In this document: piece by piece, positions 6,797-34,471 of the stretch | How positions within the stretch are numbered: position 1 is the stretch's first letter | Layout: each line of letters opens with the position of its first letter | Origin: a virus | Length of the DNA stretch: 34,471 bases | Virus record (IMG/VR): IMGVR_UViG_3300044814_000051 | Coordinates: 1 to 34,471 of that record | Strand: one strand, 5' to 3' | Position numbers and translations under genes: made by a program | Notes under the pieces: model-generated | Seen by the model: only the letters and a program-made list of their open reading frames with translations | The model's database searches: none | What the model was told of the DNA's origin: nothing

Positions 6797-6872
6797 GGTG
6801 ACTTTTCCCGGATACGGCTGAACCACCCGGGGTTGCCGGGCGGCTCTTATCGCAGATGAAAAGGGCTGTAGT

Positions 6873-7826: not shown

Positions 7827-7864
7827 GATTCCCCCCGTGTGCTCGTGTTCTTCCTTATGCCTCC

Positions 7865-7893: not shown

Positions 7894-7912
7894 CGTCTTT
7901 CCTGTCTTGGGG

Positions 7913-7976
7913 TGTAACAAAATAGAGTTTCCGCAGGTCAGAGGCCTGTTACAGGATCTGCAACGCCCCTGTTACG
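7913..7976. promoter_or_regulatory. Repeated GTTAC/GTAAC boxes in the divergent control region
   Basis: TGTAAC at 7913-7918, CTGTTACAG (odd palindrome) at 7946-7954, and CTGTTACG at 7969-7976. They lie between the divergent ATPase and ribbon-helix-helix genes. Repeated short boxes next to a ribbon-helix-helix gene suggest autoregulatory operators; this is inference. No strong plus-strand -35/-10 pair was found. Confidence 0.4.
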
Positions 7977-8040
7977 CCTTCTTCTGCTGTAGTGGTGTGC
8001 TACGGTGAAAAGGACAACACTGGCAAGGGAGAAATGACAG

Positions 8041-8651: not shown

Positions 8652-8802
8652 CCTCGATCAGTCCCTGTGCCCGCAGCCCGGCCGCCAACTGCAGCAGGTT
8701 CACGGCCTCCCCGGAGACGCTCCGGCCTTCCAGCGCCGCCAGCTGCTCGATCCTCGCGTACAGCTGGTCCGGGACCTTTCGCATGTGAATGCTCCTGGGC
8801 AT
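8449..8802 (-). CDS. Ribbon-helix-helix protein, Arc-like
   Basis: 117 residues from the ATG at 8802, chosen because GAGG lies 8 nt upstream; an ATG six bases earlier is too close to that SD. Residues about 3-45 (RSIHMRKVPDQLYARIEQLAALEGRSVSGEAVNLLQLAAG) match the Arc/ribbon-helix-helix pattern seen in FitA-like antitoxins and phage repressors. The middle is acidic (EQDDDDWPAREAMYARAADRAKNARKYG). The last about 35 residues run antisense across the SWIM gene and may not be native. It is convergent with the plus-strand pair; regulation of the early region is the likely job. Confidence 0.6.
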   Translation of the reverse strand: MPRSIHMRKVPDQLYARIEQLAALEGRSVSGEAVNLLQLAAGLRAQGLIEVRDEPGAEQDDDDWPAREAMYARAADRAKNARKYGTAPLSFAGPEQISLLLPRACRLAGSGTRCRCR

Positions 8803-8825
8803 TTTCATCACCTCGCGTAGTGATA

Positions 8826-8879
8826 CCCCGGCGGGCCTGCCGACCGAAGTGGAGGCCTGAATCTGGAAACCCGCCGGGG
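8826..8879. repeat. 10-bp perfect inverted repeat upstream of the minus RHH gene
   Basis: CCCCGGCGGG (8826-8835) and CCCGCCGGGG (8870-8879) with a 34-nt spacer, lying in the leader of the gene starting at 8802. No T-run follows on the minus strand, so it is not a simple terminator; it could be an operator or mRNA leader structure. Confidence 0.4.
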
Positions 8880-8931
8880 GAGAGCGAAACACCAGGAAGA
8901 TGCAAAAAGATTTCCGCCCTCGCTATCGATG

Positions 8932-9240
8932 CTACTCCCACGGGGGCGGCACCGCTATTCCCAGTCGCCCCGCTGCCCTCGCCGCTGACCTCTCGTCCAC
9001 CATGGCCGCTTCGAAGCTCTTCCGGTTCGCCGGCTGCGTCCTGCCCACCAGGTAGCCGTTGCCGCCTCTGCGCTGAGAATCTGAGCCACTTTGACGCCCT
9101 CTGGCCCATCTCAGGTCCCTGACCGCCGGAAGGTCGCTGAGAACCGCCCCCCAGCCCCGTGCGTCCGGGCACTCGTACCGGTCCTCCAGTGACCTGATCA
9201 CCACGGCGAACTCGGCACGGCTCAGGCTGAACGGCTCCAC
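8932..9240 (-). CDS. Hypothetical protein in replication operon
   Basis: 102 residues. The start is taken as the GTG at 9240, two bases after the TGA of the zinc-motif gene; the frame is open upstream, but that stretch is antisense-frame noise over the previous gene. Readable parts are EPFSLSRAEFAVVIRSLEDRY, ARGWGAVLSDLPAVRDLRWARGR and a basic middle, ending GRLGIAVPPPWE. No domain is recognised. High third-position GC supports coding. It is the last gene of the putative initiator operon. Confidence 0.5.
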   Translation of the reverse strand: MEPFSLSRAEFAVVIRSLEDRYECPDARGWGAVLSDLPAVRDLRWARGRQSGSDSQRRGGNGYLVGRTQPANRKSFEAAMVDERSAARAAGRLGIAVPPPWE

Positions 9241-9242
9241 GA

Positions 9243-9596
9243 TCAGGAGTACGCGTCGAAGTCCCGCTCCCACCGGGCCAGCTCGGAAGCCTGCCGCACC
9301 ATCTCGCCCTGAGCGAGCCGCACCTTCGCTACCCTGGCAGCGGACGGGCCGGCGGCTATTTCCCGCTCCTCGCGCAGCTTCCTGGCCAGGACCGCAATCT
9401 GCCTCCCCGCCAGTCCGCACGCCCTGGCCTGCCGACGCCAGTGCGACGCCTCCCTCGGCACCCCGCCGTTGCCCTCGCACAGCTCACCCGGCCCTCTCCG
9501 GCAGGTCGGGCACTGTACGCCCCGGATCTCCTCCCGGCTCGGGAACCGCCCGTTCTCCTCGAAGAACGGACTCTGCTCCAGGTCGCCGCTGTTCAC
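9243..9596 (-). CDS. Zinc-motif (CPTC...C...H) phage protein
   Basis: 117 residues from a GTG overlapping the stop of the upstream gene (GTGA). Residues about 28-60 read VQCPTCRRGPGELCEGNGG...ASHWRR, the CxxC-x7-C...H zinc pattern common in small actinobacterial and actinophage proteins. The C-terminal half is a long charged helix (RKLREEREIAAG...VRQASELARWERDFDAY). Probably a nucleic-acid-binding accessory of the replication module; no enzymatic function can be read. Confidence 0.7.
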   Translation of the reverse strand: MNSGDLEQSPFFEENGRFPSREEIRGVQCPTCRRGPGELCEGNGGVPREASHWRRQARACGLAGRQIAVLARKLREEREIAAGPSAARVAKVRLAQGEMVRQASELARWERDFDAYS

Positions 9597-9723
9597 GCTG
9601 CCCCTCCAGCCTTCTGCCGAACTCGTCCTGTGCCTGCTGCCACCCTGACCCCCAGCTGTACGCCGTCCTGACCCACCGCAGCCGCACCGCCCGCTGCTGA
9701 GCGCCCCACTCTGACTGATCCAT
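9484..9723 (-). other. Possible overlapping ORF or frame displacement between initiator and zinc gene
   Basis: From the ATG at 9723 a second frame reads MDQSEWGAQQRAVRLRW...GWQQAQDEFGRRLEGQ. Between 9723 and about 9600 its third codon positions are far richer in G/C than those of the initiator frame over the same bases, so coding signal appears to move from the initiator frame to this one and then to the zinc gene frame. No good SD is seen. Either a small overlapping gene or sequence errors could explain it. Confidence 0.3.
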
Positions 9724-10763: not shown

Positions 10764-11753
10764 TCATAGTACCGACTCGTACGCTTCCAGCCACCGGTAG
10801 GCGTTGCGCTGGATTGTCATCCCCTGCGTGTAAGCTCTGCACTCTTCCAGCAGCCGTTTCCGCTCGGCAGGGTCGAGCAGGGACCTCAGTGCCCGGTACC
10901 AGTCGGCGGCGGAGGCACACCGCAGTCCCGGGTAGCCCTCGTACGCTGCTGCGCCAGAAAATACAGGCACTATCCCGAGCATGGAGTACTCAGTGACCTT
11001 CAGGGCGCTCTTAGAGGCGTTAAAAGCTGAACGCTGCAGCGGCGCGAGGCCGATGTCCATCGACAGCGACTCGTAGTAGCGGGGAACGCTCATCTGCCAG
11101 GGAGTGAACCTCACCCGGCCCCGCACCGAGCCAGGCAGCATCTTCGCGAACTCCGCCCCGACGAAGTGAATCAGCACGTCCCGGTTGCGGGTCAGGAACT
11201 TCCCGGTCCCGGCTGCCGGCTCGCCAGCCCAGTCGCCCGCGTGACTGGCAGACCCGCCGAAGCCGATCGTCAGTGCCTCAGTCGGCTTGCGGCTGACGGA
11301 GAGGATCATCTCGTCCGGGTAGTTGGGGATGACAGCCACGTTCGGGTTGATCTTCCGCAGCACCTGCGCGAGGGGCTCTGTCGTGGTGGTGACCAGGTCG
11401 GCTGCCTCGCAGCAGCGCCTCAGCCTTCCCAGTCTCGGCTGGTCCTTAACGTAGAAGTCCCAGGCCTGGGAGTTCGAGCGGTCGATCTGCCAGAGGTCGT
11501 CGTCGATCTCGAAGACAAGACGGTACTTCCTCAGCCAGCGGGGCTGAGCGGCCAGCTTCAGCCACTCGTCGTGCGGCCCCTGGTTGCTGACCCGCTGCCC
11601 GACGATGACGTCGAAGTCCCTGGCATCGTGCTTGCCGCTGAAGAGAACTTCATGCCCTTGCCGCTTCAGTTCACCGAGCGGGAGGAAAATCCGGTAGTAA
11701 CCGCATCCGGTGCGGTCCCCGGCCATTCCGAGGATCTTCACCGGTAAAGGCAC
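10764..11753 (-). CDS. GT4-family (GT-B fold) glycosyltransferase
   Basis: 329 residues; the GTG start overlaps the previous gene by 16 nt. N-terminal domain: RTGCGYYRIFLPLGELKRQGHEV, typical of GT4 enzymes; LVFEIDDDLW and DLVTTTTEPLAQVL follow. C-terminal donor-binding domain: LTIGFGGSASHAGDW, MDIGLAPLQRSAFNASKSALKVTEYSMLGIVPVFS, where the K..EY..G.PV pattern replaces the EX7E motif that binds nucleotide-sugar. The family transfers a sugar from NDP- or GDP-sugar to a varied acceptor. It is the last of three glycosyltransferase genes read from the late operon, so the acceptor may be a virion protein, phage DNA or the host surface; the sequence does not say which. Confidence 0.85.
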   Translation of the reverse strand: MPLPVKILGMAGDRTGCGYYRIFLPLGELKRQGHEVLFSGKHDARDFDVIVGQRVSNQGPHDEWLKLAAQPRWLRKYRLVFEIDDDLWQIDRSNSQAWDFYVKDQPRLGRLRRCCEAADLVTTTTEPLAQVLRKINPNVAVIPNYPDEMILSVSRKPTEALTIGFGGSASHAGDWAGEPAAGTGKFLTRNRDVLIHFVGAEFAKMLPGSVRGRVRFTPWQMSVPRYYESLSMDIGLAPLQRSAFNASKSALKVTEYSMLGIVPVFSGAAAYEGYPGLRCASAADWYRALRSLLDPAERKRLLEECRAYTQGMTIQRNAYRWLEAYESVL

Positions 11754-12277
11754 GGTGCCCAGGTGTCGACGGTGAGGTCAGGGGTGTGCACCCACTGCAC
11801 GCCTGCCGTCATCCACTGGGAGACCAGGTCCCAGGTGCTGAACGATGCCCACGGTCCCCAGTCCATGATGAGAGCCAGCCCTGCCCGGTAGACCAGGGCG
11901 GAGGCCGCGATGCCGTCCCTGGAGGGAGGGTCAGTGCCGATCTTCCGTTCCTCCCCGAGTGAGCGGTGCTCCCGTGCGATCGTATAGCAGAACCCTGCCT
12001 CCGGGTGAATGGCCATGGACTCGGCCAGCAGCAGCAGGTGCTCCGGCATCCAGGCGTCTCCCTCACCGATGACCGCGATCAGGTCGGCGGGGCCGCCTGA
12101 CCAGCGCTTCGCCAGGTCCGCCAGCACATGGCCTCCCTGGCAGCCTTCCCGCTCGCAGTCGTCTAGCCCGGTCAGCCACTCGTCCGGCGGCCGGAGCTGG
12201 CCTCGTACGGACTGGGCGGTGACAGTTTCCAGCAGCGCCAGTTTCCCCTTGCTGACAGTGAGCGCGGTAACGATCAC
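11738..12277 (-). CDS. Short GT2-like glycosyltransferase
   Basis: 179 residues; the GTG overlaps the previous stop (GTGA) and has AGGGG 9 nt upstream. The N-terminal nucleotide-binding part is reduced. The centre GGPADLIAVIGEGDAWMPEHLLLLAESM resembles the GT2 region around the DxD motif (DLI..lgEGDaw.PeHL), with only GD left of it. SALVYRAGLALIMDWGPWASFSTWDLVSQWM matches the later GT2 segment seen in its upstream neighbour. It is probably a diverged partner that may act with the 12274-12852 protein or be inactive. GT2 proteins usually have 220 or more residues. Confidence 0.6.
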   Translation of the reverse strand: MIVTALTVSKGKLALLETVTAQSVRGQLRPPDEWLTGLDDCEREGCQGGHVLADLAKRWSGGPADLIAVIGEGDAWMPEHLLLLAESMAIHPEAGFCYTIAREHRSLGEERKIGTDPPSRDGIAASALVYRAGLALIMDWGPWASFSTWDLVSQWMTAGVQWVHTPDLTVDTWAPCLYR

Positions 12278-12852
12278 CAGCGGTCACCCCTTCCTGATGT
12301 GTTCATCCCGTTATGATTCCAGATGAACGTTTCCTCGGGAAGGTGCTCGAAGCTCGCGCCCCAGCTCAGCAGCGCCAGCCAGAGTCCCCAGTCGTCGTAG
12401 TTCCCCCCGTCCGGGGGACGCTGGAAGCCGCCTGCCTCCATCGCCAGGCGAGTCCGTACCAGGCTGGTGGTCTGGATGTAGGACCGCTGCCGCAGCACGC
12501 CAGGGTCGAACGGCTTGCCGTACTGCGGCTCCGTCTTAGTGAACTCCGGGAACTGCGGCACCACCGGGATCGAGTACACCACGTCAGCGCCTGATTCCCG
12601 CTGCCTTTGCTCCAAGGCCCTCAGGTGGTGCGGAAGGAACTCGTCGTCGCTGTCCAGGAACGCGGTGAACTCGGTGGTGACCTGGGAAAGCGCCCGGTTC
12701 TTAGTCGCCGCAGCGCCAATGTGATCATGGTCAATGGCGACAACTATTGCCTCCGGCTGACGTTCCTGCATGCACACTGAGTGCAATGTCACGGGAAGGG
12801 TGGTATTCACCCGGGGGGTGTGCGCGGAAATAGCTACGGTAATGTAGGGCAT
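12274..12852 (-). CDS. GT2-family (GT-A fold) glycosyltransferase
   Basis: 192 residues; the ATG overlaps the TGA of the HNH gene (TGATG). It begins MPYITVAISAHTPR with the usual beta-strand; EAIVVAIDHDHIGAAATKNRAL then FTAFLDSDDEFLPHHL give the nucleotide-sugar site, with D67-S-D69 the metal-binding DxD. The acceptor part includes YIQTTSLVRTRLAMEAGGF and DDWGLWLALLSWG, as in GT2 enzymes. It ends right after FIWNHNGMNTSGRG, shorter than most relatives but with all main motifs. First gene of the three-gene sugar cassette downstream of the tail genes. Confidence 0.85.
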   Translation of the reverse strand: MPYITVAISAHTPRVNTTLPVTLHSVCMQERQPEAIVVAIDHDHIGAAATKNRALSQVTTEFTAFLDSDDEFLPHHLRALEQRQRESGADVVYSIPVVPQFPEFTKTEPQYGKPFDPGVLRQRSYIQTTSLVRTRLAMEAGGFQRPPDGGNYDDWGLWLALLSWGASFEHLPEETFIWNHNGMNTSGRGDRW

Positions 12853-18463: not shown

Positions 18464-20089
18464 TCACCCGCCATATCCGGAACCGGTTGAGTAGAGTGCC
18501 CGGCCTGACGAGCTGGTGGACACGCTGTTGAGTGCCTGCGCGAGGGACCCGCCGGTCCTGCCGGGAGATGCCTCAAGCGCGGCGAGAATACGCTCCAGCA
18601 GCATGACAACGGAACTGTCATCCGCCTGGGCGGTGTGCGAGTGAGCAGGCTCGGCGGGCCGGGGAGCGGGAGACGACAGGCTGGACGGCATCGTCCACCC
18701 CTTACGGTCAAGAGGGCCAACGGCAGCCTGCCCGCCAGCCGCAGCAGCGTGCGGAGCGGCGATCCCAGGGACATTGTGCCTGACCAGGATAGGAGCGGCC
18801 ACTGACAGCACCTCGGGCACCGCTGCCTTCGGCACGATCAGCTCACCAGGCATCGTGTTGATGAGCACGCTGTCCTTGTCAGGCACCCCGCCAGAGATCA
18901 TCCCGCCGGCTGCCCCGGCCTTGTTGCAGTCACCGTGACATCCGCCGCCTACCGTGCCGCCACCGCAGAAACCGGGAACAAGCAGGCCGTCAGCAGCCCC
19001 GGCCTTGTCACAGTTGCCGCCTACCGTGCCGCCACCGCAGAAACCGGGAACAAGCAGGCCGTCAGCGGCTGCGCAGCACTCCGGCAGGCCAGGGTGCCCG
19101 CAGTTGTCAGGATTCTGCTGCTGCTGATCAGGGGGCAGGCCGCCTTCGGCCACGCACTTGCTGACACCGGAGCCGGACCCACTGCCAGAACCACTGCCAG
19201 AACCACTGCCAGAACCACTGCCAGACCCAGAGCCGCCAGTACCCGTCGGGTACTTACAACCATAGGAACATGCCCCGCCGGGACCCGACACAACCTGTAC
19301 CGCAGAGCCGCCTCCTGGGCAGGGATCGGCTGGCGGGCATCCTGTGCTGCCTCCAGTGCCACCACCCCCTCCAGGGCCAGTGCCAGTAGGAGGCGGGGTA
19401 ACCTGCGTTACCGGGGCACAAGCCGCCCCGACGATACCACCAGCTGCCGCGCCGCCCCGGGTGACAATGGTGATGACCTTGGTGCAGGGCGCGCACAGCC
19501 TGTCCAGCTCAGCCGCCGCCTGGCCGCCTGGATCAGTGGCATGCGCACTGATCATGACACTGCGGTTCCGGGACAAGTTATTCATCTCGGCGTCGACCGC
19601 ATCCGGGTCCACGTGCGCGAAGATCGTGGTATTGCGGTTCCGGGACAAGTTATTCATCTCGGCGTCGACCGCATCCGGGTCCACGTGCGCGAAGATCGTG
19701 GTATTGCGGTTCCGGGACAGGGTGTTCATCTGCGCGGCGACAGCGTCCGGGTTAAGGTGAGCGAAAATCGTAGTATTACGGTTCTTGTCAAGGGTGTTCA
19801 GCTCAGCCGCTACCGCGTCACGGTCCAGGTGGGCAAAAATCGTGGTGTCACGGTTCTTGTCAAGGGTGTCCAGTTCCTCGGCTACCGCATCCTTGTCAAG
19901 GTGAGCGAAGATCGTGGTGTCACGGTCGTGCGCCAGGTCGTCAAGCTCAGCGGAGACAGCGTCCTTGTCCAGGTGGGCGAAGATCGTGAGATCACGGTCG
20001 TGCGCCAGCGCGTCCAGCTGCTCCTGGATGTCGTTTTCCGCGAGGCGCGGCTTAACCTCTACGTAGCACTCGGAAAGCGGCCCTGGCAT
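18464..20089 (-). CDS. Tape measure protein, short and atypical
   Basis: 541 residues in the tape-measure slot (after chaperones, before distal tail). Residues 24-191 are six full and one partial 24-residue repeats (consensus ELDxLxxDRDTTIFAHLDxDAVAA), the kind that opens actinophage tape measures. Then come Gly/Cys-rich stretches, a long Gly-Ser run (about 19170-19240), a duplicated DGLLVPGFCGGGTVGG, and a C-terminal MPGELIVPKAAVPEVL typical of tape-measure ends. It lacks the long helical middle and the hydrophobic segments usual in the family. Since tape length sets tail length, the tail should be short, or the Gly/Ser/Cys part is an insertion. The ATG start overlaps the upstream stop. Confidence 0.7.
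   Translation of the reverse strand: MPGPLSECYVEVKPRLAENDIQEQLDALAHDRDLTIFAHLDKDAVSAELDDLAHDRDTTIFAHLDKDAVAEELDTLDKNRDTTIFAHLDRDAVAAELNTLDKNRNTTIFAHLNPDAVAAQMNTLSRNRNTTIFAHVDPDAVDAEMNNLSRNRNTTIFAHVDPDAVDAEMNNLSRNRSVMISAHATDPGGQAAAELDRLCAPCTKVITIVTRGGAAAGGIVGAACAPVTQVTPPPTGTGPGGGGGTGGSTGCPPADPCPGGGSAVQVVSGPGGACSYGCKYPTGTGGSGSGSGSGSGSGSGSGSGSGSGVSKCVAEGGLPPDQQQQNPDNCGHPGLPECCAAADGLLVPGFCGGGTVGGNCDKAGAADGLLVPGFCGGGTVGGGCHGDCNKAGAAGGMISGGVPDKDSVLINTMPGELIVPKAAVPEVLSVAAPILVRHNVPGIAAPHAAAAGGQAAVGPLDRKGWTMPSSLSSPAPRPAEPAHSHTAQADDSSVVMLLERILAALEASPGRTGGSLAQALNSVSTSSSGRALYSTGSGYGG
19517..20020 (-). repeat. 72-bp tandem repeats in the tape measure gene
   Basis: Seven 72-bp units (24 codons each) running from codon 24 to codon 191 of the tape measure. 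The stretch around 19564-19705 is almost exactly duplicated, indicating recent expansion; units nearer the start are more diverged. Confidence 0.8.
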
Positions 20090-20820: not shown

Positions 20821-21459
20821 TCACCATGCAGTCCCTGCGAGGTACCAGCGCCAGGGCACCACCTGAGTGGAGGTGTAGCCGTTGTTCGTGTCAGGGTTGG
20901 TAGCGGGCAGCTCGCCCTTCAGCCCGATCGACAACTCCTGGGCATTGGGGTTCTTGTCAAAGTGGGGGCTCACGACCGAGTTAACGCCCTGGTAGATGAA
21001 CACCACCTCGTCGTCGTTCTCCGACTGCCAGCCGAGCATCGAGCGAACCTCCTTGCCCACCAGGGGCGCGGAGAACCCGGTGATGACGTTGGCCCCGGTC
21101 CCGGAGGTGGTGTAGTTGCCGCCCGTGCCCGCCAGGGTGTTGGCGTCCGCCATGTTGAAGGCGAAGGCGAGGTTCACCTTGCTGATCTCGTTGAGGACGC
21201 ACGAGCCCTCGATGCTGTCCCCGGTGCCCAGCACGTGGGTCGCGTAATACGACTCAGCCGGCACGAAGTCAGAGAACGTCGGCGTGCGAGAGACGGTCAG
21301 TCCTGCGGACGTTCCGCCGACCGCGAACCACCCGGTCCAGGCCTGGGTGAACTTGCCTCCCACAACGGTGAGCGTCGGCACGGTGGTCCCGGCTCCGGAC
21401 ATGTAAATGGTGCCAGCCCCGAAGTGATTCTTGGTTGGGGTAAGAGTTGCGGTGCCCAT
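20821..21459 (-). CDS. Major tail protein
   Basis: 212 residues; the ATG has AGGAGG 8 nt upstream, a strong SD fitting a highly made protein. The beta-rich sequence (ATLTPTKNHFGAGTIYMSG...TLTVVGGKFTQAWTGWFAVGGTSAGLTVSRTPTFSDF...SIEGSCVLNEISKVNLAFAFN) has the form of siphovirus tail-tube subunits that stack in rings around the tape measure. It sits between tail terminator and chaperones as expected. Confidence 0.82.
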   Translation of the reverse strand: MGTATLTPTKNHFGAGTIYMSGAGTTVPTLTVVGGKFTQAWTGWFAVGGTSAGLTVSRTPTFSDFVPAESYYATHVLGTGDSIEGSCVLNEISKVNLAFAFNMADANTLAGTGGNYTTSGTGANVITGFSAPLVGKEVRSMLGWQSENDDEVVFIYQGVNSVVSPHFDKNPNAQELSIGLKGELPATNPDTNNGYTSTQVVPWRWYLAGTAW

Positions 21460-21474: not shown

Positions 21475-21936
21475 CTAGACGATTACCAGTCCGACGGGCG
21501 TGAACACGAACTCAAGCGAGAGCATGTAACGCGCTATTGCCGCCGGGTCATTGCCAGCGCGGCGCGGCTCTGCCATGCAGGTCACACCGTGCAGGTCCGC
21601 GCTGAGAAATCCACCGGGAATGGTGAAGATCCCGTGCGCGAGGTTGCCAAGGCAGGCGTCCCTGATCGCCTCGGCGGTAATGCTCGCCCGGTTCCACGCG
21701 GGGCGAGTGCTGTTGGGGGCTTTCGCCCAGGCGTCCACCTGCATCACCGCGATACGGGTGGCGATGTACGGGCTGGGCATGCCGCCCAGTGAGGCTGACA
21801 CGGTGACGAAGTCCTGTCCGGGCCAGTCTTTCGGCTGCGGCAGCGTAGTAGCCACCTCAGTCGCTGCCAGCTCTGGCAGGCTCTTCAGCCAGGCCACCGC
21901 CACCTGGAACGATCCAGGTCGCTTCTGCACGGTCAT
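21475..21936 (-). CDS. Tail terminator/completion protein (putative)
   Basis: 153 residues. MTVQKRPGSFQVAVAWLKSLPEL...VATTLPQPKDWPGQDFVTVSASLGGMPSPYIATRIAVMQVDAWAKA and IRDACLGNLAHG show the helix-strand-strand plan of tail terminators (lambda gpU/HK97-like), which cap the tail tube. It lies between the neck protein and the major tail protein. Its start touches the stop of the upstream frame. Confidence 0.65.
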   Translation of the reverse strand: MTVQKRPGSFQVAVAWLKSLPELAATEVATTLPQPKDWPGQDFVTVSASLGGMPSPYIATRIAVMQVDAWAKAPNSTRPAWNRASITAEAIRDACLGNLAHGIFTIPGGFLSADLHGVTCMAEPRRAGNDPAAIARYMLSLEFVFTPVGLVIV

Positions 21937-22508
21937 CAGGGACCTCCTGTCGTAGGCGGCGGCGCGGGCGCAGGTGCCGCAGCCGGGCCAGTGACCGGCG
22001 ATGTGACTGCCGGCTGCTTGCTGGCAGCCTGAACAGCCGTCATGGTCAGCCTGATGACGACCTGGAGGCCATTCACGCCAAACCGTAGAATCCCCCCGGC
22101 TATCCAGAAGAACAGACGGCCCGAACGGGCACCGCTAGAACCACGTGAAACAACCCGGGCACCACTGGAACCGCCAGTCCCGGAGCGGCCACGACGACCG
22201 AACCGTACCCACGTGCCGTCGTTCTTACGGTAACCACTCGCACCTGCTGCTACTGCGTCTGCCCTGAGCAGGCGGTTAACCGCAGCATTAAGGCTCTTGG
22301 CGGTGTGAGGAGCCTTAGGAGGAGCACCCTTAAGCAACGCTGCAAACGCCTGCTTTTGTGCTTTCTTCTGGGCGGCGAGCGCCTGCTTTTGTGCTTTCTT
22401 CTGGGCGGCGAGCGCCTGCTTTTGCGTAGAAATCTGCTTCTTCTGCTCAGCCTCATGCTTCTTCTGCGTAGCGAGTCCGAATGGCTGCTCGATTCTAGCG
22501 CTGCCTTC
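21936..22508 (-). pseudogene. C-terminal part of the neck-ART protein in the -1 frame
   Basis: This frame opens after a TAA at 22511-22509 and continues the Lys/Gln-rich coiled coil of the upstream protein (QPFGLATQKKHEAEQKK), then TAKSLNAAVNRLLRADAVAAG, a GTWVRFGRRGR basic patch and a hydrophobic FFWIAGGILRFGVNGLQVVI segment before a Pro/Ala tail. The upstream frame instead becomes Arg/Ser-rich over the same bases. No SD or ATG introduces it (a TTG at 22337 is the only modest start). The two frames probably make one protein, joined by a -1 shift between 22508 and 22480, or were split by an indel or sequencing error. Confidence 0.55.
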
Positions 22509-23626
22509 TTATTGGCAAGCGTAAGCTTGAGATTATCGTGAGTTGTCAGCTTCTTCTGCGTTGCCTCATGCTTCTTGATATTGAGAGCAAAATTATCCTT
22601 GACAGAAACCTTAGGAGTAGCAGTCTTCACTTGCTCTATATCTATTTCCACTTCCGTGTGGCCGGCTTCATCAATGTTCTCCCTACGAGCAATAACCTTG
22701 AACTTCCCAGTCGCTAGCAGGTGTTCTTTCTCGAAATCAAACCCAGTATTGGCTACTGTCTCGATGTTAACAGACTTGGCTCCCTTCAGCCTAAACCCAA
22801 CATGAACAGTTTTGCCTTCAGTAGAAGACAGTGAAAGGTCACCCTTCGCAAAACCCTCGGCAACACGTGGATCACGTGAGTATGACGAAACAGGATCAGT
22901 AAAAACAGAACCAACCTTCTTGTTCGCGAGGAACTTCTCAGCCTGCCGTGGAGTGAAGTTAAAACCACGGTAAAGAGTTGGTGCTGACGTAGTGCCCGTC
23001 TTGAAATGTTCAATGATAGCCCGAGCATCCCTGCAGTCCACTTCCGAACCAGTGCAGACGCGGCCAGCGGAAATTTCCATCATGGCGGCCCGAATTCCTG
23101 TCGAATTGTGCTTCCATGCGTAGATAGCTTCCTCGTACACCCTATTCTTACGCTGCGCGGCGGTAGGAGCCGGCCCGTCGACCTTGCATTCGCTGCACTC
23201 CCAGTGGTGGCCCAGATCACGAACTACCCTGGGCTTGCTGAGATCGCCCCAGTCCTTATAACACTGCGGACGCAGAAACGGAGAGGGAGTCGCACCGGGA
23301 TGGTGAACGGTCTTGCCGAAGAACTGACCGGTGCAGTGATTGTGCAGTTGCCTGCCACTGTGTGAAGTGATGACGTGCGGCCTGGTGCCAAGCTCGACAT
23401 AGCAGGCGTAGAACGCCGTGGCACCAAGGTAGATGTGGCAGTCCGCGTCCACGTTCACGTAGATGGACGCCTTCAGCTCACCAGGAGGATGGGGGTCGCC
23501 GCAGACGGCCACCGGGCAGTCCGCCTCGGCACCGGCCTTCATGCGCTGCGCAAGCTCCTCGATGCAGGGGCGGGCACACTGAATGACCTGCTCCTGCCAG
23601 CCCGCGTTCATCACGACCTGACCCAC
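22250..23626 (-). CDS. HK97-gp10-like neck protein fused to an ADP-ribosyltransferase domain
   Basis: Residues about 10-126 have the gp10-like neck form: AQRMKAGAEADCPV, PPGELKASI, YLGATAFYACYVELGTRPHVI, HHPGATPSPFLRP. After a CxxC linker (ECSEC), residues about 160-335 read as an R-S-E class ADP-ribosyltransferase: TLYRGFNF (R220), VSSYSRDPRVAEGFA (S248/S250, the STS-like motif) and FEKEHLLATGKFKVIARR (E299-K-E301, the ExE motif). Such enzymes move ADP-ribose from NAD to a protein, as T4 Alt does on injection; Arg-specific enzymes have ExE. Residues 336-378 are a Lys-rich coiled coil. From about residue 379 the frame turns Arg/Ser-rich and is not believable. The start is GTG 23626 or, better spaced, ATG 23611. 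ART-coding DNA is visibly less GC-rich. Confidence 0.8.
   Translation of the reverse strand: MGQVVMNAGWQEQVIQCARPCIEELAQRMKAGAEADCPVAVCGDPHPPGELKASIYVNVDADCHIYLGATAFYACYVELGTRPHVITSHSGRQLHNHCTGQFFGKTVHHPGATPSPFLRPQCYKDWGDLSKPRVVRDLGHHWECSECKVDGPAPTAAQRKNRVYEEAIYAWKHNSTGIRAAMMEISAGRVCTGSEVDCRDARAIIEHFKTGTTSAPTLYRGFNFTPRQAEKFLANKKVGSVFTDPVSSYSRDPRVAEGFAKGDLSLSSTEGKTVHVGFRLKGAKSVNIETVANTGFDFEKEHLLATGKFKVIARRENIDEAGHTEVEIDIEQVKTATPKVSVKDNFALNIKKHEATQKKLTTHDNLKLTLANKKAALESSSHSDSLRRRSMRLSRRSRFLRKSRRSPPRRKHKSRRSPPRRKHKSRRLQRCLRVLLLRLLTPPRALMLRLTACSGQTQ
22348..22424 (-). repeat. 33-bp tandem repeat coding for Gln/Lys-rich coiled coil
   Basis: Two identical 33-bp units (22348-22380, 22381-22413) plus 11 bases of a third. 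In the -1 frame they encode an 11-residue QALAAQKKAQK repeat, in the other frame an Arg/Ser/Pro repeat. The length is a multiple of three, so copy number can change without changing frame. Confidence 0.85.
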
Positions 23627-23681: not shown

Positions 23682-24011
23682 TCAGGAGTCAAGCAGACGC
23701 AGGCCTAGCTCCACGTCACCGGGCATGAGCACGCTCCGGGTAACCACCGAGTCCACGGTGTAAATCAGCTTCGTCTTCTCGTCCAGCAGGCGGTCGCCCT
23801 TGCGGCAGTCGGTACCCGGCTTCAGCAGACCGGTCACGTACTCGACAAAAGCCGAGCGACCGGTCTCCGGCGAGGCCACGAACTTGGTCTGCTGAACCAG
23901 CGACGCTGGCACCCCGGTGGCCGCCGGCTGGCTGCTGTCAGCCTCGTCGTCGTCCTCGGTCTGGTACGTGCCCCGCAGGATCGAGCAGGTAGTGGTCGCG
24001 ATGAACATCAC
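23682..24011 (-). CDS. Head-tail stopper/head closure protein (putative)
   Basis: 109 residues, beginning GTG-ATG just after the TGA of the connector gene. TTTCSILRGTYQTEDD...DDSQPAATGVPASLVQQTKFVASPETGRSAFVEYVTGLLKPGTDCRKGDRLLDEKTKLIYTVDSVVTR is a small beta barrel of the kind (SPP1 gp16/HK97 gp7 type) that closes the portal channel: an oligonucleotide-like R/V-E-Y-V-T-G-x-L-x-x-G-T-D...GDRLxD pattern common in actinophages. Position between connector and neck protein agrees. Confidence 0.7.
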   Translation of the reverse strand: MMFIATTTCSILRGTYQTEDDDEADSSQPAATGVPASLVQQTKFVASPETGRSAFVEYVTGLLKPGTDCRKGDRLLDEKTKLIYTVDSVVTRSVLMPGDVELGLRLLDS

Positions 24012-24815
24012 TCACGTCCGCATCTGGTTCCAGGGTGCACCGAGGTCATCATTGATCGTCGGGTTCATCAGCCGCGCGTACGGGAACGGGCGCTGAATCT
24101 TGACACTACGCGATTTCAACCATGTCACCCAGCGAAGGCAGCGCCTGGCCATCGGCCCAATCACCAGCGCGTCGGCCAGCAGAGTCCCACTCGTCCCGGA
24201 CTGGTTGACGTTGATCGCGTCATAGCTGCTGAACGTCCCGGGATTGTCCGTCACCCAGGCGGCCTCCCACGCGGTGGCACACTTCAGCCAGTACTGGTCC
24301 CGGTCGGTCAGCACGTCCTCTTCGGCTCCCAGGCCCACCAGCAGCTCGTACAACGGCCTGCCGATCAGGCCCTCGATCACGCTGTAAGCGACAGCCAGGT
24401 TCGTCTCGTTCACGTCCGTGCGACCGGTGACGCTGGTGACATCGGCCAGCGAGCAGAACGTCTCCGGTGGCGGCCCTGCCTGAGAGAACAGCGACGCCTG
24501 CACCGAGACGGCGATGAACCCGTCGGACGGGAACGTCTGCACACCGCCCGGGTACGACACCTGAAAGCTGGCCAGGTAGTTCCCCGGGATATTTGTGTCG
24601 CCGGGAGCCCAGATGTACTGGACGGTGCCGTCAGCAGGCAGCCCGGTCACCAAAGCCGATGCGTTCACCGCCAGGTTCTGCGATCCCTCGGCGGCCATCA
24701 GGAACTGCACGCCAATCGCCTGCGTCAGGTCGATCGGGTCCCCGAGCGCGTCAGTCAGCGACGTGGCCAGCACTGGCAGAACGTCGCCGCTCTTTATATA
24801 GAAATCAGTTTGCAT
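24012..24815 (-). CDS. Head-tail connector with an N-terminal BppU-like domain
   Basis: 267 residues. Residues about 1-110 (FYIKSGDVLPVLATSLTDALGDPIDLTQAIGVQFLM...VQYIWAPGDTNIPGNYLASFQVSYPGGVQTFPSDGFIAVSV) match the immunoglobulin-like N-terminal domain of baseplate upper protein BppU (PF10651 form). Residues about 118-250 (CSLADVTSVTGRTDVNETNLAVAYSVIEGLIGR, DQYWLKCATAWEAAWVTDNPG) are the helical gp6/gp15-type adaptor that sits on the portal. The adaptor assignment fits its place before the stopper. The join of a tail-associated Ig domain to an adaptor is unusual and coincides with the adjoining fibre cassette. Confidence 0.72.
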   Translation of the reverse strand: MQTDFYIKSGDVLPVLATSLTDALGDPIDLTQAIGVQFLMAAEGSQNLAVNASALVTGLPADGTVQYIWAPGDTNIPGNYLASFQVSYPGGVQTFPSDGFIAVSVQASLFSQAGPPPETFCSLADVTSVTGRTDVNETNLAVAYSVIEGLIGRPLYELLVGLGAEEDVLTDRDQYWLKCATAWEAAWVTDNPGTFSSYDAINVNQSGTSGTLLADALVIGPMARRCLRWVTWLKSRSVKIQRPFPYARLMNPTINDDLGAPWNQMRT

Positions 24816-24818
24816 TTC

Positions 24819-27800
24819 TTACTCACTCTCCCCTGCCAGTATCGGACTCCGCAGGACATTAGAGAATGTGGCGGAAGGACCGACCATTACCCGGCCCTGC
24901 TTTAGCGTCACGTAGCCCAGGCTCTGGCTATTGGTGCCGGATACTTCCGGCAGCGGCAATTGCACTGACCCGGCAGACGAGAATGCCTCAGTACCAGTGC
25001 CTGATGCCCTCATCGGCCGCATAGACAATGAGCCCGCGCAAGAGAACGACTGTCCTGTCCCTCCCGGCTCGGTAAGCTTCTTCAGCTTCAACAACCCGGT
25101 ACCAGTAAAGACTTCCGAAGTGGTGCCAGCCTCAGTGAGCTTTCTGAGTGCCAGCGACCCGGTGCTGGTAAACGTCTCGGTTACAGTGCCTGCCGCTTGC
25201 AGCTTATGCAGAGACAACGACCCGGTACAGGTAAACGTCTCGGTACCCGCAGCCGCCTCAGCCAGCTTCCGGGTTGCCAGGGAACCGGCGGCTGCGAAGA
25301 TCTCGGAGCTGGTGCCTGCCTCCGCCAGCTTACGCAGGGACAAGCTGCCGGTACTGGAGAACGACTGGGCAGCACCGGACTCGGTGAGCTTCCTGGCTGT
25401 CAGGCCACCAGTGCCAGAGAACGTCTCAGCACCAGTGCCAGACATCGACGGCCTGCGCAGAATCAGGCCGCCGGAGCAGGAGAACGACTGGGCGGTGCCC
25501 GACTCGGTGAGCTTGCGCAGTGACAGCGAGCCGAAGGCTGACCCTGCCGGTACCATAACCACGGCACCCTGCTCCTGTAGCTTCTTCAGCTTCAGCGAGC
25601 CCGAACAGGTGAAGATACCGACAGCGGAAGCGGTCACGGTCAGCTTGCGCAGACTCAGGCTGCCTGTGCTAGAAAACGACTGCACCGCCCCGGCTTCGGT
25701 GAGCTTGCGCAGACTCAGGCTTCCCGAGCAGAAGAATGACTGCGCTGTTCCGGCTTCGGTCAGCTTCTTCGGCTTCAGTGACCCCGTACCGGTGAAAATC
25801 TCAGTGCTGGTACCAGCCTCGGTGAGCTTCTTCGGCTTCAGGCCGCCGGTACTGGTAAACGTCTCGGTAACGGTTCCAGCCTCGGTGAGCTTCTTCGGCT
25901 TCAGGCTGCCGGTACTGGTAAACGTCTCGGTAACGGTTCCGGACATCAGCACCCTGTGCAGGGCTAGCGATCCTGCGGTCGCCTGGGGAACATTCAGCCA
26001 TGCGAATTTAGCTGTCTTCGCGGTACTCGGCGGCCCCCATACCGTCGACCACACCCACACGTACAGCGAAGACAGGAGTACCGGATCGGCCGTGCTGTAC
26101 TGGTTCGTCCAGCTCAGCCCGTTCGCACTGGTGTCAAAGTACAGTGTCCCTGCTACCTCGCGGATACGCAGCCACGCGTGGTTGACCGGGTCGAACGCCA
26201 GGAGGTGCCCTGGCCCTGTCCGGTTGCCGACACCACCGCCCGGGTTCCAGTAAACGGTCAGGTTGCCGGCCTCGGACACAAACCAGACAGAAACAGGTCC
26301 CCACTGATTCGGCTCGGTAGCAGTCGACTCCAGGACAAGACCCGACGAGGCACTCTCCCCGCTGATAGCGGCATCACCGCCATCTGGCATGTTGACTGTG
26401 ACAGAACTGCCGGTCAGGTCGTAAGGAGCGTTCGATACCACCCCGGCATCGCTCCAGCTAGACAGGAACACAGGGTTGGAGACATTCAGCGTGCCACCGG
26501 ACTCAGCCACGGTACCTCCGCCAGCTGTCCAGGAATTCCACTTGGTGCTGTCGACGGAAGAACCGGAGAACGGATCAGTCAGCGACAGCGTCTTGGGCAG
26601 CGTCAGCCCGGTCTCCGTCAGCTTCCGCAACGTCAGGGAGCCTGTACTGGTGACCAGCGGAATGTTAGTCCCGGCCATCTTCAGCTTCCTCGGAGTCAGG
26701 GAGCCAGAGGTGGTAACAGCAGCAGGCGAGGCGTTGAACACCGTACCCGCCAGCTTCAGCTTCCTCGGGGTCAGCGAGCCAGAGCTGGTAGGAATGACGG
26801 TACCAACAGCACCACTTATAGCCGCCAAGCCAGTCCAGGCCGATGCAGCTCCTTGAGACTGATCGGCAACGGCCATATTGTCAAGGTAATAAATACCAGT
26901 ATTAGTCTGGCCAAACACCATGTACGGAGAGCTGCAAGTAGTATTCCCTGTGCCACTAGATGTCTGGTAGTCAATTTGCGTACCTGAACTGTTGAAAATC
27001 CATGCCTCAGCCAGGCCAGTGGTCGCGCTCAAGTGATAATGCGTCACCACACGGTACCACTGGCCAGCACTTATTACTCCGGCACCTATAGTCCAGATGC
27101 CAGTCTGGGAACCAGTAGTACCGGACGACGGCGAGTTTGAAACCTCCAGATTCCAGTTACTGCCGTTCGGAGCAAATGCCGTTGCAGCAGCAGCCACACC
27201 AACACTGCTTACTACGTCGCCGGCGCAACGAAAATAGCCGCCTGTCGCGGTGCTCGTTGGAATGTAGATCCAGGCACGTGTGTAAACATCAGTAGAACTG
27301 CCGGTATACGCCCAGTTCAGCTCACCAGTATTAATAGCGTAGCCCAGTGACCCGGATTGCGCTGCTGCCGTAGCGAACGTAGAATTCGCAAAAGCAATCG
27401 AATCAAAAGCGGTACCTGACTGGCCACCGGAATTCGCAGTGGTGACCACCGTAGTATTCGTACCACCCTCGGCAGTATTGTTCCGTATGTAGCCAGGTGA
27501 AGAAATCACCGGATTCTGCAGACTCAGCGAGCCTGAGCAGGTGACGATCGGCACGAACGGCGTACTGAGGCCGATGTTGACCTCAGCGGCCGACAGCGTA
27601 GCGGCGAAAGTCGGAGTTCCGGTGACAGCGGTCGTCTGGTAGTACCCGGCACAGGTAATGCCGGCGACGGTACCGGTGTCACCCGCTGTCCAGCCCGCCG
27701 TGATGCCGGAGAGTGTCTGCCCGGAGCCAGTCCATCCCAGGTTGACGATCCACAACTCATCAGCCATCTGCGTGGCGGTCGGCACCCCGACGTTGATTGC

Positions 27801-28166
27801 CGTGCTAGCCCCGGAGCTGGCCTTATTGGTCGCCCCGTCCACGGTAGGCACCGCTGGCCAGCCCCCGGTGGCGTACCACTCCGTCAGCTCCCACGCCGAA
27901 ACGTACGAGCCGGTCCAGGACACGGCGAAACTGTGCGTAGTAGCTGTCGCCGTCATGGAAACGGTCTGCACCCGTAGGCTCGTGTTGCTGACTGCCCCGT
28001 TGTTGTGCCACCCGGACGGGAAGGTGGGCGTCGGGTTCGCGCCGATGCTGAGCCTCAGGACCAGCAGATTGCCGACCGCCACCGGGTTGGTCACCGACGC
28101 TGTGAAGCTGGTCCCTGCGGCAGCGGACCCGGAGTTGTGCTGGACCCTGGTGATCGTGGTAGCCAT
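24819..28166 (-). CDS. Large repeat-built tail fibre/adhesin with jelly-roll and LamG domains
   Basis: 1115 residues. Order: N-terminal jelly-roll domain (about 1-215; SFTASVTNPVAVGNLLVLRLSIG...HSFAVSWTGSYVSAWELTEW), a LamG-like domain (about 225-450; GYFRCAGDVVSSVG...WNLEVSNSPSSG...TGIYYLDNMAVAD), three repeats, a second concanavalin-like domain (about 520-720; DPFSGSSVDSTKWNSWTAGG...LYFDTSANGLSWTNQYS), then about 16 tandem 20-21-residue repeats with core GSLSLRKLTEAGT, and a short tail. The two sugar-binding-type folds suggest a receptor-binding fibre; the repeats probably form a regular beta shaft. Its start overlaps the stop of the next repeat protein. It lies between capsid and connector genes rather than with the tail-tip genes. 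Confidence 0.75.
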   Translation of the reverse strand: MATTITRVQHNSGSAAAGTSFTASVTNPVAVGNLLVLRLSIGANPTPTFPSGWHNNGAVSNTSLRVQTVSMTATATTHSFAVSWTGSYVSAWELTEWYATGGWPAVPTVDGATNKASSGASTAINVGVPTATQMADELWIVNLGWTGSGQTLSGITAGWTAGDTGTVAGITCAGYYQTTAVTGTPTFAATLSAAEVNIGLSTPFVPIVTCSGSLSLQNPVISSPGYIRNNTAEGGTNTTVVTTANSGGQSGTAFDSIAFANSTFATAAAQSGSLGYAINTGELNWAYTGSSTDVYTRAWIYIPTSTATGGYFRCAGDVVSSVGVAAAATAFAPNGSNWNLEVSNSPSSGTTGSQTGIWTIGAGVISAGQWYRVVTHYHLSATTGLAEAWIFNSSGTQIDYQTSSGTGNTTCSSPYMVFGQTNTGIYYLDNMAVADQSQGAASAWTGLAAISGAVGTVIPTSSGSLTPRKLKLAGTVFNASPAAVTTSGSLTPRKLKMAGTNIPLVTSTGSLTLRKLTETGLTLPKTLSLTDPFSGSSVDSTKWNSWTAGGGTVAESGGTLNVSNPVFLSSWSDAGVVSNAPYDLTGSSVTVNMPDGGDAAISGESASSGLVLESTATEPNQWGPVSVWFVSEAGNLTVYWNPGGGVGNRTGPGHLLAFDPVNHAWLRIREVAGTLYFDTSANGLSWTNQYSTADPVLLSSLYVWVWSTVWGPPSTAKTAKFAWLNVPQATAGSLALHRVLMSGTVTETFTSTGSLKPKKLTEAGTVTETFTSTGGLKPKKLTEAGTSTEIFTGTGSLKPKKLTEAGTAQSFFCSGSLSLRKLTEAGAVQSFSSTGSLSLRKLTVTASAVGIFTCSGSLKLKKLQEQGAVVMVPAGSAFGSLSLRKLTESGTAQSFSCSGGLILRRPSMSGTGAETFSGTGGLTARKLTESGAAQSFSSTGSLSLRKLAEAGTSSEIFAAAGSLATRKLAEAAAGTETFTCTGSLSLHKLQAAGTVTETFTSTGSLALRKLTEAGTTSEVFTGTGLLKLKKLTEPGGTGQSFSCAGSLSMRPMRASGTGTEAFSSAGSVQLPLPEVSGTNSQSLGYVTLKQGRVMVGPSATFSNVLRSPILAGESE
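24960..25950 (-). repeat. Tandem 60-63-bp repeats (21-residue unit)
   Basis: About 16 diverged units coding for the pattern xxTETFTSTGSLxLRKLTEAG. The strongest conservation is GSL.LRKL.E.G; the segment between units alternates mainly between a TETF/SEIF and an AQSF type. Related units fill 28250-29240. Confidence 0.85.
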
Positions 28167-30730: not shown

Positions 30731-32725
30731 CTAACTCATCACGAACGCAGGCAGGTTGGAAAGTGCCCCGGCACCGGACGGCGTAATAGGCGTCGGCAGG
30801 GCCGTGTAAGACCCGGCCACGTTGTAAAACCCCGACAGGAGATTTGCCGATGTAAGTCCAAGGTTAGTATTAGCGCCAGCACTAACCGAACCTGCAGCGG
30901 CAAAAGTAGGACAGGTGGTCATCGCTCCTATAACCAGGCCAACCCGGTACAACGTTCCGACTGTTACCGCTAGCGGAGTACTAAGCGCTGCTGCCCGTAC
31001 TGCTGCTGTCATCATGTTGGTACTCTGATCAGTCGAGCACGACCCGAGCAGTACCCCGGCCATTGAGTAAATGCCAAGGAACGCATTAGTCAAGCCTGCG
31101 CCAGCAATAGACACAATGTAATTGATATTGTTTATGTTTCCGGCGGCTGGTGTCTTGAATGTCCAGAACAGCAAACGCCCGGCATACGTAGCTGCTACGT
31201 ACGTAGCAGTAGTAGCAGCCAAAGCCGGGTTGACTGTCCACCCGATAACCCCCAGATCAGACGGCTGAAGGCTGCCACTGCCCCCTCCCACGCCGCTGAC
31301 CGCAGTACTGACAAACTGCGTCGTCGCCAGCTTAGTGGAGTTGTCACCCGCCGTCTGCGTCGGTGCGGTCGGACCACCCAGGAGCCCGGCGTTGGTCAGC
31401 GGGGCGAACAATGCCGGGTTGGTGTCCAGGTTAACCCAGGCAGCACCAGTGTAGACAGACAACAGGTCACCGGCTACCGGAGTGACGTACACGCCGGTCG
31501 ATACCGTGTAGTTGACGTAATTACGAACGGATATCTGCGCCTGGTTAGCTGTAGGAACAATACAACTGGTCCTTGCCCCACCCGCCGAGAGGTTATCGAA
31601 CGTGACCACCCCGGGCCTGTTAGAAGCGGACCCAGTGATAACGAACGTGCCAAGAACATAGCCGCCGTTCACGGTATTCTGGACATTAGTTGCATTGAAG
31701 TTCTTGAAGTGCCAGATACCTCCGTAGATATTAGCTATGACATTGCCTGAATTCAGGTTGCCTGTCTTTATCTCGACATCCTCGAATGACACGGGCACCG
31801 GAGTAAAGCCACTGACAGTTGTCAGGAACTGGTTACAGCTCTGCGACTGAACATTCCGGATAGAGCACTGCGACCCGGGATTCATGTAGAAGTCAGAGAA
31901 GTTATTTGCCGGCTGCGCGCCGTCTAGGGAAAGACTGGAGGCATTAATCTTGTAACCATAGTAGAACCCGGCGGCATCAATGCCGAGTCCTACGTGATCA
32001 TAGTTGTTGGCGAACGTCCCGTTACCAAACACAAAGCCGTTCACCGAATTGCCTGTGGACGCCCAGTTCCCTGGATACTGAGCCCCGCTCAGGTTGACGT
32101 TGACCAGGACAGTACCGTCAACCTGAGCCGAGGCATTTCCGGCCAGCGAGAAGTAAGTGATGGCATTGGTAGCCTTGATCCAGATGTTCTCGAACTTGTT
32201 CCCGGTCGTGCTCCGTGCCGAGCTGGCCGCGACGTAGTCAAGCCTGATCGCGTCCTGCATCTGCTCGGTAGTATCACCCTGAATATAGAAATCCCGGAAT
32301 ACCCCGTTGGCCGCACCGTTGATGAACAGGCAGGCCTTAGTGAACCCAGTTCCGGAGGGCATAAGCCGCGACTGCTGGCCATCCCCGAAGAAGGTAAATC
32401 CCTGAGTCGACACAATGTTCAGGTCGGCGGTTACCTTGTATATCCCGGTCGGCAGATAGACCGGGGCGATAGGAGCACGGATCGTGGTAGCCGGGTTAGC
32501 TGCTCCGGTAGCGGCGGCAATAGCCGCGTTAATCGCCGCTGTATCGTCATGAATTCCGTTGCCTATAGCCCCGTACTTCGGGTCTTTCACGTTGATAACG
32601 TCAGAAATACCGTTCACCTGGGCGGCGGACCCGTCAGCGTTATGCGCGGCCAGCAGCCACGCGTTGAGCTGCGTACCCCAGCTATTGGCACTGCCGCCGA
32701 CCGTGGGAAGCGAAGGCGTAGTCAT
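30731..32725 (-). CDS. Tail spike with pectate-lyase-like beta-helix
   Basis: 664 residues; GGAGGAG lies about 7 nt before the ATG. After an N-terminal anchor (SLPTVGGSANSWGTQLNAWLL) comes the hallmark VINVKDPKYGAIGNGIHDDTAAINAAIAAA...PVYLPTGIYKVTADLNI of pectate-lyase-superfamily spikes, then a right-handed beta-helix to about residue 420. A linker (AWVNLDTNPALFAPLTNAGLLGGPTAPTQTAGDNSTKLATTQFV, a common tail-fibre segment) follows, then a C-terminal beta domain (about 510-664). Such spikes bind and often cut surface polysaccharide; catalytic residues cannot be identified by eye. It lies near the capsid gene. Confidence 0.85.
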   Translation of the reverse strand: MTTPSLPTVGGSANSWGTQLNAWLLAAHNADGSAAQVNGISDVINVKDPKYGAIGNGIHDDTAAINAAIAAATGAANPATTIRAPIAPVYLPTGIYKVTADLNIVSTQGFTFFGDGQQSRLMPSGTGFTKACLFINGAANGVFRDFYIQGDTTEQMQDAIRLDYVAASSARSTTGNKFENIWIKATNAITYFSLAGNASAQVDGTVLVNVNLSGAQYPGNWASTGNSVNGFVFGNGTFANNYDHVGLGIDAAGFYYGYKINASSLSLDGAQPANNFSDFYMNPGSQCSIRNVQSQSCNQFLTTVSGFTPVPVSFEDVEIKTGNLNSGNVIANIYGGIWHFKNFNATNVQNTVNGGYVLGTFVITGSASNRPGVVTFDNLSAGGARTSCIVPTANQAQISVRNYVNYTVSTGVYVTPVAGDLLSVYTGAAWVNLDTNPALFAPLTNAGLLGGPTAPTQTAGDNSTKLATTQFVSTAVSGVGGGSGSLQPSDLGVIGWTVNPALAATTATYVAATYAGRLLFWTFKTPAAGNINNINYIVSIAGAGLTNAFLGIYSMAGVLLGSCSTDQSTNMMTAAVRAAALSTPLAVTVGTLYRVGLVIGAMTTCPTFAAAGSVSAGANTNLGLTSANLLSGFYNVAGSYTALPTPITPSGAGALSNLPAFVMS

Positions 32726-33402: not shown

Positions 33403-34365
33403 TCAGGCTCCGGAGTACTCCAGCACGGACCAGGCCTGCGGGAAGCCGGTGTGGTAACCGCGCCGCGAGCGGTACATCAGCTCGATGGTGTCCTTGCCCG
33501 GCAGCCGTTCCTGCTTCGTCTCAGGACCAGAGCGGACACCGAGGATCAGGTGATCGCGGTTGCCGATGAACATCAGCGGGTTACCAGTGGGAGAGCTGGA
33601 CGGCACTCCGCCGGTCGCCACGCGGGCACCCAGCGACCAGAAGACCGGGGTATCCACGATCGACGGCACCTCGCGGGCGGTCGCCTCTTCTGTATAACCG
33701 GTGACGGTCGTCAGCCCTGCCGCGTCCCGGAACATCGGCTGCCCGGTGGTCGACAGGACATTGCGCAAGAGGCGCTTGAACCTGGGATGCGCGATCACGA
33801 CACTGCGGGACTCGCTGAAGAACCGCGACTCCTGGTAGAGACCGAACGCGGTCATCAGCGTGGAATAGCCGCCGGAACCGGTCAGCGTGGACACGGTAGC
33901 GTAGTTGGCGTTGGCGGTGTAGCCCGCGCCCGTGTCGCTGGTGGTGACCGCTGAGTAAAGCGAGGTAAACGGGGTCGCCGTCTCCCGCACGCCCGCACCG
34001 GTAGCGCCCAGGCAGGCATTGTCCAGGTGGATCGCGTACGACCCGGCCCAGTCAGCGCCACGGGTGCTGATCACGTCGATGATCCCGGCCAGGTCTGAGA
34101 GGTCCTCGTCCGTCAGCGGGACACCCTGGGCGAACTTGCTCGCCTGCAGAGTCACCTCGTCGTCAGTGGAGGTGTCGTCCGTGTACGCAGTGTTCCTGGC
34201 GGTGACCGTGGAGCCGACCCCGCCGGAACGCGGAACGGCGCGGGCATTGGTACCCATGAGAGCGCGGCGGGCGCAGAACTCTACTGCCGATGACTGCACA
34301 ATCCTGGTAATGACACCGGAGTCCATTTCAATGGGAATCCAGTTGTCCTCCGCGCGGTATGCCAC
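33403..34365 (-). CDS. Major capsid protein (HK97 fold)
   Basis: 320 residues from a GTG with AAGGA about 12 nt upstream. The sequence follows the HK97-type plan: N-arm (EDNWIPIEMDSGVITRIVQSSAVEFCARRALMGTNARAVPRSG), E-loop/P-domain strands (VTLQASKFAQGVPLTDEDLSDLAGIIDVISTRGADWAGSYAIHLDNACLG), then ESRSVVIAHPRFKRLLRNVLSTTGQPMF and a C-terminal FIGNRDHLILGVRSGPETKQERL...YHTGFPQAWSVLEYSG. It forms the icosahedral shell. No maturation protease is visible. If the window is circular, it directly follows scaffold and the small Cys-rich gene, as expected. Confidence 0.9.
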   Translation of the reverse strand: MAYRAEDNWIPIEMDSGVITRIVQSSAVEFCARRALMGTNARAVPRSGGVGSTVTARNTAYTDDTSTDDEVTLQASKFAQGVPLTDEDLSDLAGIIDVISTRGADWAGSYAIHLDNACLGATGAGVRETATPFTSLYSAVTTSDTGAGYTANANYATVSTLTGSGGYSTLMTAFGLYQESRFFSESRSVVIAHPRFKRLLRNVLSTTGQPMFRDAAGLTTVTGYTEEATAREVPSIVDTPVFWSLGARVATGGVPSSSPTGNPLMFIGNRDHLILGVRSGPETKQERLPGKDTIELMYRSRRGYHTGFPQAWSVLEYSGA

Positions 34366-34446
34366 GGAGCCTCACATCCTTCCGTTCGAGCTTTGTATCA
34401 CAGTTAGCCGTCACGGCTAGATCGCCTCACGCGGTCTGAACTCGTA

Positions 34447-34471
34447 CTATCGGATAATCTGCATCGCGAGC
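34447..34471 (-). other. Probable last 8 codons of the gene cut at base 1
   Basis: If base 34471 is joined to base 1, the frame of the 1-170 gene continues here as LLAMQIIR and ends at TAG (34449-34447), 81 nt before the capsid start. Bases 34366-34446 hold only the capsid ribosome-binding site; nothing else is seen there. Confidence 0.45.

Follow-up and report, generated by a model that had tools for sequence, protein, structure and literature searches.

Introduction

Virion-borne ADP-ribosyltransferase (ART) effectors are known from phages; the Alt protein of T4, which modifies RNA polymerase, is a free internal head protein present in many copies, unlike the putatively one-copy fusion that we describe here. 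In the Alt/VIP2 clade, phage ARTs fused to MuF or to portal proteins have been described, and the interval between the MuF and capsid genes is the usual location of head-packaged effectors (PMC9503650). The main text of that report makes no mention of neck, connector, head-tail or gp10, and in the open-licence literature we found no report of an ART on a tail-completion protein (TCP). The TCP as an ART carrier thus appears not to have been described, as an earlier note on this DNA had supposed for neck proteins in general.

For comparison, the TCP of phage 80alpha is a monomer inside the neck, where it stacks on the last base pair of the DNA and binds the N-termini of the tape-measure protein; it presumably exits with the tape measure and the DNA (PMC11661146). 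We have analysed a virus record of 34,471 bases, the whole of which is called the window below, and observed that a gene on its minus strand (22250-23626) combines a TCP (Neck1) domain and an R-S-E class ART domain.

Results

Gene order of the record

The GC content of the window is 63% (mean 0.631, standard deviation 0.048 per 550-nt segment). This value, together with nearest neck proteins that come from Mycobacterium, Gordonia and Streptomyces phages, suggests an actinobacterial host, and the virus is probably an actinobacterial siphophage. The minus strand reads, in order, capsid (33403-34365), fibre-like genes, adaptor, head closure, the fusion gene (a 458-aa open reading frame with a GTG start), tail terminator (21475..21936, phrog_123, E 9.6e-5), tail tube (20821-21459), tail chaperones and a probable tape measure (18464-20089), several of these roles being assigned from gene order alone. 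Thus, the probable adaptor or head-tail connector (24012..24815) matches phrog_22288, a family of unknown function (E 4.1e-12), and has homologues that adjoin the capsid gene in relatives; the probable head-closure or stopper protein (23682..24011) was assigned from its position and from homologues that lie behind the adaptor in relatives. Genes for the terminase (3098-5521), portal (1229-2920) and scaffold (248-817), also on the minus strand, are near the opposite end of the record from the capsid gene. The window has no tRNA and no Rfam family match. An assembly chimera at the fusion gene is unlikely, as structural genes flank it on both sides in their usual order.

Several other features of the record were noted. 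The terminase has about 270 additional residues (84-357), rich in Ala, Gly and Pro, immediately ahead of the Walker A region; they are missing from relatives, are not intein-like and match no Rfam intron family. The probable tape measure is short (541 aa) and starts with repeats of the DKNRNTTIFAHLDPDAVAAE type, followed by a long Gly/Ser run. A 1115-residue protein (24819-28166, minus strand) contains many repeats of the TGSLxxRKLTEAGT type and has a related protein behind the capsid gene of the sister contig discussed below. Between the capsid and connector genes, which is an unusual location, there is a tail-spike-like gene (30731-32725, minus strand) with a pectate-lyase type domain (PF12708, E 1.2e-8). 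Finally, a run of glycosyltransferase-like genes occupies 10764-12852 of the minus strand, with matches to PF00535 at 12274-12852 (E 7.3e-9) and, weakly, to PF13439 at 10764-11753.

The tail-completion domain

The N-terminal domain of the fusion protein (residues 1-131; 23234..23626, minus strand) was recognized from sequence and, independently, from structure prediction of that part alone, both of which support the gp10-like neck assignment of the earlier note. The family phrog_5, 'tail completion or Neck1', matches residues 22-120 (E 1.5e-6 with the whole reading frame and 2.1e-7 with the domain alone), as it does all 16 members of our TCP alignment. Fifteen neck proteins of relatives could be aligned from end to end, their C-termini falling near residue 127 of the fusion protein, which indicates that the extra sequence was added past the natural C-terminus. 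Also, the TCP gene lies between the head-closure and tail-terminator genes both in the window and in the relatives. The fusion protein has no match to PF04233 (MuF), and its N-terminal domain belongs to phrog_5, so that it is not a MuF-ART fusion.

An AF2 model, which was built from the alignment with these 15 neck proteins (pLDDT 81), has a sole good match in the PDB, the gp51 of 80alpha/SaPI1 (9mu2_P, HK97-gp10 family), with a VIA-align Z of 9.6, an rmsd of 4.2 and 102 of 109 residues aligned; the next match has a Z of 3.1. Foldseek gave E 0.4 and a probability of 0.98 for the same entry, which was also, independently, the sole though weak match of the TCP sequence profile (E 0.44). The two proteins are alike in this fold, in an ExGT-type motif and in a gene position directly before the tail terminator. 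They differ in that gp51, of about 115 residues, carries no enzyme, and identity to the TCP domain is 17%.

The ART domain and its homologues

The TCP and ART domains share one continuous reading frame, with in-order neighbour genes on both sides. They are separated by a junction (residues 132-150; 23177..23233, minus strand) that includes a CSEC sequence and lies past the ends of the relatives' neck proteins, and in which model confidence is low from residue 132 onwards. A joint alignment of TCP and ART had its ART rows misaligned, and was excluded from the results. No second TCP-ART fusion was found in related loci, the neck reading frames found there being plain.

Judged from its sequence and predicted fold, the segment of residues 151-335 (22622..23176, minus strand) is an R-S-E ADP-ribosyltransferase, made up of a helical N-lobe and an R-S-E core, with its catalytic signature intact. 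The landmarks are at the residues given in the earlier note: R220 in LYRG (codon 22967..22969), the STS-type motif S248-Y249-S250 within SSYS (22877..22885) and the E-x-E motif E299-K300-E301 (22724..22732), all on the minus strand. Pfam, NCBIfam and PDB sequence searches of the domain returned no ART match, and its best PHROG match when isolated, phrog_832 (RNA polymerase ADP-ribosylase), was below threshold (E 0.042). In phages and plasmids, tblastn yielded matches that were weak, antisense or fragmentary only. IMG/VR and GTDB were also scanned for patterns taken from the ART, from the whole protein, from the tail-tube protein and from the three-way ART alignment described below, and no further relatives were found; such scans depend on short conserved words, and distant relatives may escape them. 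A search of 50 records with a profile of the three-way alignment matched the window and one sister contig alone.

Structure prediction of this part, done separately by AF2 from a three-row alignment, gave a model of moderate quality (pLDDT 68, pTM 0.52, with the E-x-E loop below 50) that shows the ART order of elements. All 50 of the PDB matches listed by Foldseek are ARTs or ART-containing effectors (best E 5.8e-7). With VIA-align, the model scored Z 10.5 against an ART toxin-immunity pair, although at 9.8 A that fit is poor; against XopAI, the score was Z 10.0 over 99 residues at 2.9 A. The highest-ranking viral model is one from Gordonia phage Stormageddon that is annotated as an ADP-ribosyltransferase (E 4.4e-10), and the next ones are head-morphogenesis, portal and Alt-type relatives, MuF and portal fusions included. 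The ART call of the earlier note is thereby supported by sequence and by fold.

The sister contig, L002, has the closest capsid protein (79% identity). When 12,095 reading frames of related loci were searched by phmmer with the ART domain, the two best matches (E 0.039 and 0.29) were both from L002, in proteins encoded at 6490-8613 and 8783-9697. These are 25-27% identical to the window ART along the entire domain, helical N-lobe included, and the three proteins keep LYRG/LHRG, S-[YWF]-S, A..F and E-x-E. The three-way alignment has 27 invariant columns, and R220, S248, S250, E299 and E301 all fall within them; under random placement of such columns, the probability of this is P = 4.5e-5. Since these residues had been named beforehand, and since the top two phmmer matches fall in L002, the motif appears to be more than chance.

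As for their setting, the L002 ARTs are encoded upstream of the capsid gene, between it and a MuF-like gene, in the head-gene cluster. They share with the window ART the N-lobe and the catalytic residues, and differ from the window fusion in being attached to another N-terminal module, which recurs on a kinase-like protein. Three adjacent proteins (L002:5484-9697) have this module in common, in four copies that are 49-64% identical to the first; one of the three has a PI3/4-kinase-like domain (PF00454, E 1.2e-5) and two have the ARTs. The trio have the appearance of head-packaged effectors built on a modular plan. An IMG/VR pattern scan found no copy of the module outside L002. We also noted that the window record stops right past the scaffold gene on one side (1-250) and right before the capsid gene on the other (34365-34471), pointing to a permuted genome that lacks precisely the stretch in which the effector genes of L002 lie.

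Base composition

The ART-coding DNA is, as had been noted earlier, less GC-rich than its flanks (50.5%, against 63% for the TCP part and 63.1% for the window), and the linker after the ART is lower still, at 44%. The 550-nt segment with the lowest GC content in the whole record starts at 22501 (0.469, to be compared with the mean and standard deviation given above). In L002, the two ART homologues have 63% and 56% GC, as compared with 65% for the locus. The AT-rich DNA and the absence of the domain from the neck genes of relatives fit the earlier suggestion of an acquisition; the AT-rich DNA also fits a recent one.

A frame switch near position 22490

A codon-usage scan of the fusion gene followed frame 0 down to about 22490 and the -1 frame thereafter, with a posterior near 1 on each side. 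The switch can be placed within 22470..22511 (minus strand); a stop at 22509-22511 closes the -1 frame, which is open below that point alone. By this measure, the Arg-rich end of the listed reading frame, which extends from about residue 380 to 458, is probably a reading artefact, not natural coding sequence. The -1 frame reads IEQPFGLATQKKHEAEQKKQ...AFAALLKGAPPK... to a stop at 21936-21938, which overlaps the start of the tail-terminator gene. The probable natural C-terminus (21936..22490, minus strand) would then consist of a Q/K/A-rich coiled coil followed by a basic, Pro/Ala-rich tail. A perfect 33-base tandem repeat of 2.4 copies (22347-22424), read as QKQALAAQKKA in the -1 frame, is located within the coiled-coil region. 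Taken alone, the downstream -1 reading frame has a TTG at 22337 as its sole start, and no ribosome-binding site was seen upstream of it.

The simplest cause of the frame break is a one-base loss, either genuine or a sequencing error. We considered programmed -1 frameshifting and rejected it, as there is no strict slippery heptamer near 22490; those found elsewhere, at 22856 and 22097, are about the number expected by chance. The break falls past both the TCP and the ART domains.

Discussion

The earlier interpretation, of an ART carried by a neck protein near the DNA exit channel, stands as regards both domains, and the proposed placement agrees with the matching 80alpha protein as seen by cryo-EM (PMC11661146); that interpretation, which also envisaged a putative NAD-dependent activity, injection and a possible use against competitors, took account neither of the frame switch near 22490 nor of the homologous ARTs of L002. 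With these included, we somewhat favour a reading in which the protein is a TCP with an ART added at its natural C-terminus, followed by a coiled-coil tail, and in which the ART would be co-ejected with the DNA as a virion effector. As the 80alpha TCP caps the DNA end in the neck and presumably leaves with it, we infer the same departure for the ART. By this model, the TCP domain, in single copy inside the neck as in 80alpha, would cap the genome end and hold the tape-measure protein; upon opening of the tail, TCP, ART and DNA would go into the host together, where the enzyme may ADP-ribosylate a host protein to favour early infection, in the manner of T4 Alt. Judging from the E-x-E motif, the modified residue would probably be an arginine. 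By our estimate, a single enzyme copy could, at ordinary turnover, modify thousands of target molecules within minutes. Alt is used here as a model of how a virion-borne ART entering with DNA might work, and no membership in the Alt family is claimed. Also, the headful packaging and the host of 80alpha may not apply to the window phage.

Delivery is favoured by the L002 homologues, which occupy the usual place of head-packaged effectors. Against it, the frame break may mean a damaged gene; the 20-kDa domain, about 3.6 nm across by estimate, would have little room in a tail channel that also contains the tape measure; and the moderate ART model (pLDDT 68) rests on three sequences. Neck placement is further weakened by the statement of the 80alpha authors that the location of the HK97 TCP is unclear (PMC11661146).

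The strongest of the other explanations, though an unlikely one, accepts the fusion and places the ART at the tail tip or on the exterior of the neck, where it would act extracellularly or be released at adsorption and not be injected. The TCP of T5 is indeed on the side of the tail tip, outside the neck, and is missing from the map after receptor binding (PMC11784142), which counts against placement in the neck. Together with its coil, the ART exceeds its TCP carrier in size and would be awkward inside the tail channel; yet, the sole good structural match is to a TCP inside the neck. Moreover, NAD, which ARTs require, is in short supply outside cells, and the sister phage has homologous ARTs among its head genes.

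It is also conceivable, at rather long odds, that the ART is produced late in infection and works inside the cell that makes it, for instance to counter superinfecting phages or host late functions, its presence in the virion being incidental. The fusion gene does lie within the late structural operon; however, a low-copy virion part would be a poor vehicle for a free late effector, no separate ART start was seen, and virion-borne ARTs are the common pattern for the class (PMC9503650). About as improbable is a decaying locus, in which the neck gene took up a foreign ART and then suffered a frameshift, the TCP part alone still being functional. Such decay would account for a frame switch that has no slippery site, for AT-rich DNA and for the plain neck genes of relatives, but the roughly 230 codons past the TCP remain open and keep their coding-frame signal, all catalytic residues are intact, and a one-base sequencing error suffices to explain a break that spares both domains. 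That the C-terminal domain is not an ART, its motif being a coincidence, is hardly credible in spite of the missing Pfam, NCBIfam and PDB sequence matches, given uniformly ART fold matches among the 50 listed and five catalytic residues invariant between proteins at 25-27% identity.

We therefore return to co-ejection as the preferred reading. The fusion resembles the MuF and portal fusions of the Alt/VIP2 clade (PMC9503650) in bearing an R-S-E ART on a virion protein encoded in the structural gene cluster. It differs from them in its carrier, a tail-completion plug that belongs to the tail-facing side of the neck and is expected in one copy, and in an ART too distant for Pfam or BLAST matches. 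By analogy, and more tentatively than the co-ejection itself, the TCP plug might be viewed as a natural injection vehicle, which would carry a one-copy enzyme in with the front of the genome, as one of the earliest proteins to enter the host. Within this group of phages, ART payloads might switch carriers, from a head-effector module in L002 to the DNA plug here.

Where TCPs lie, and whether they would enter the cell, became clearer with the 80alpha structure, and the question stands for most other phages. An enzyme fused to a TCP is a natural, assayable tag; were it active in a cell just after infection, ejection of the plug would be demonstrated. If the proposal is true, a tail-side carrier would join the head-side routes, Alt, MuF and portal, for delivery of ARTs by phages.
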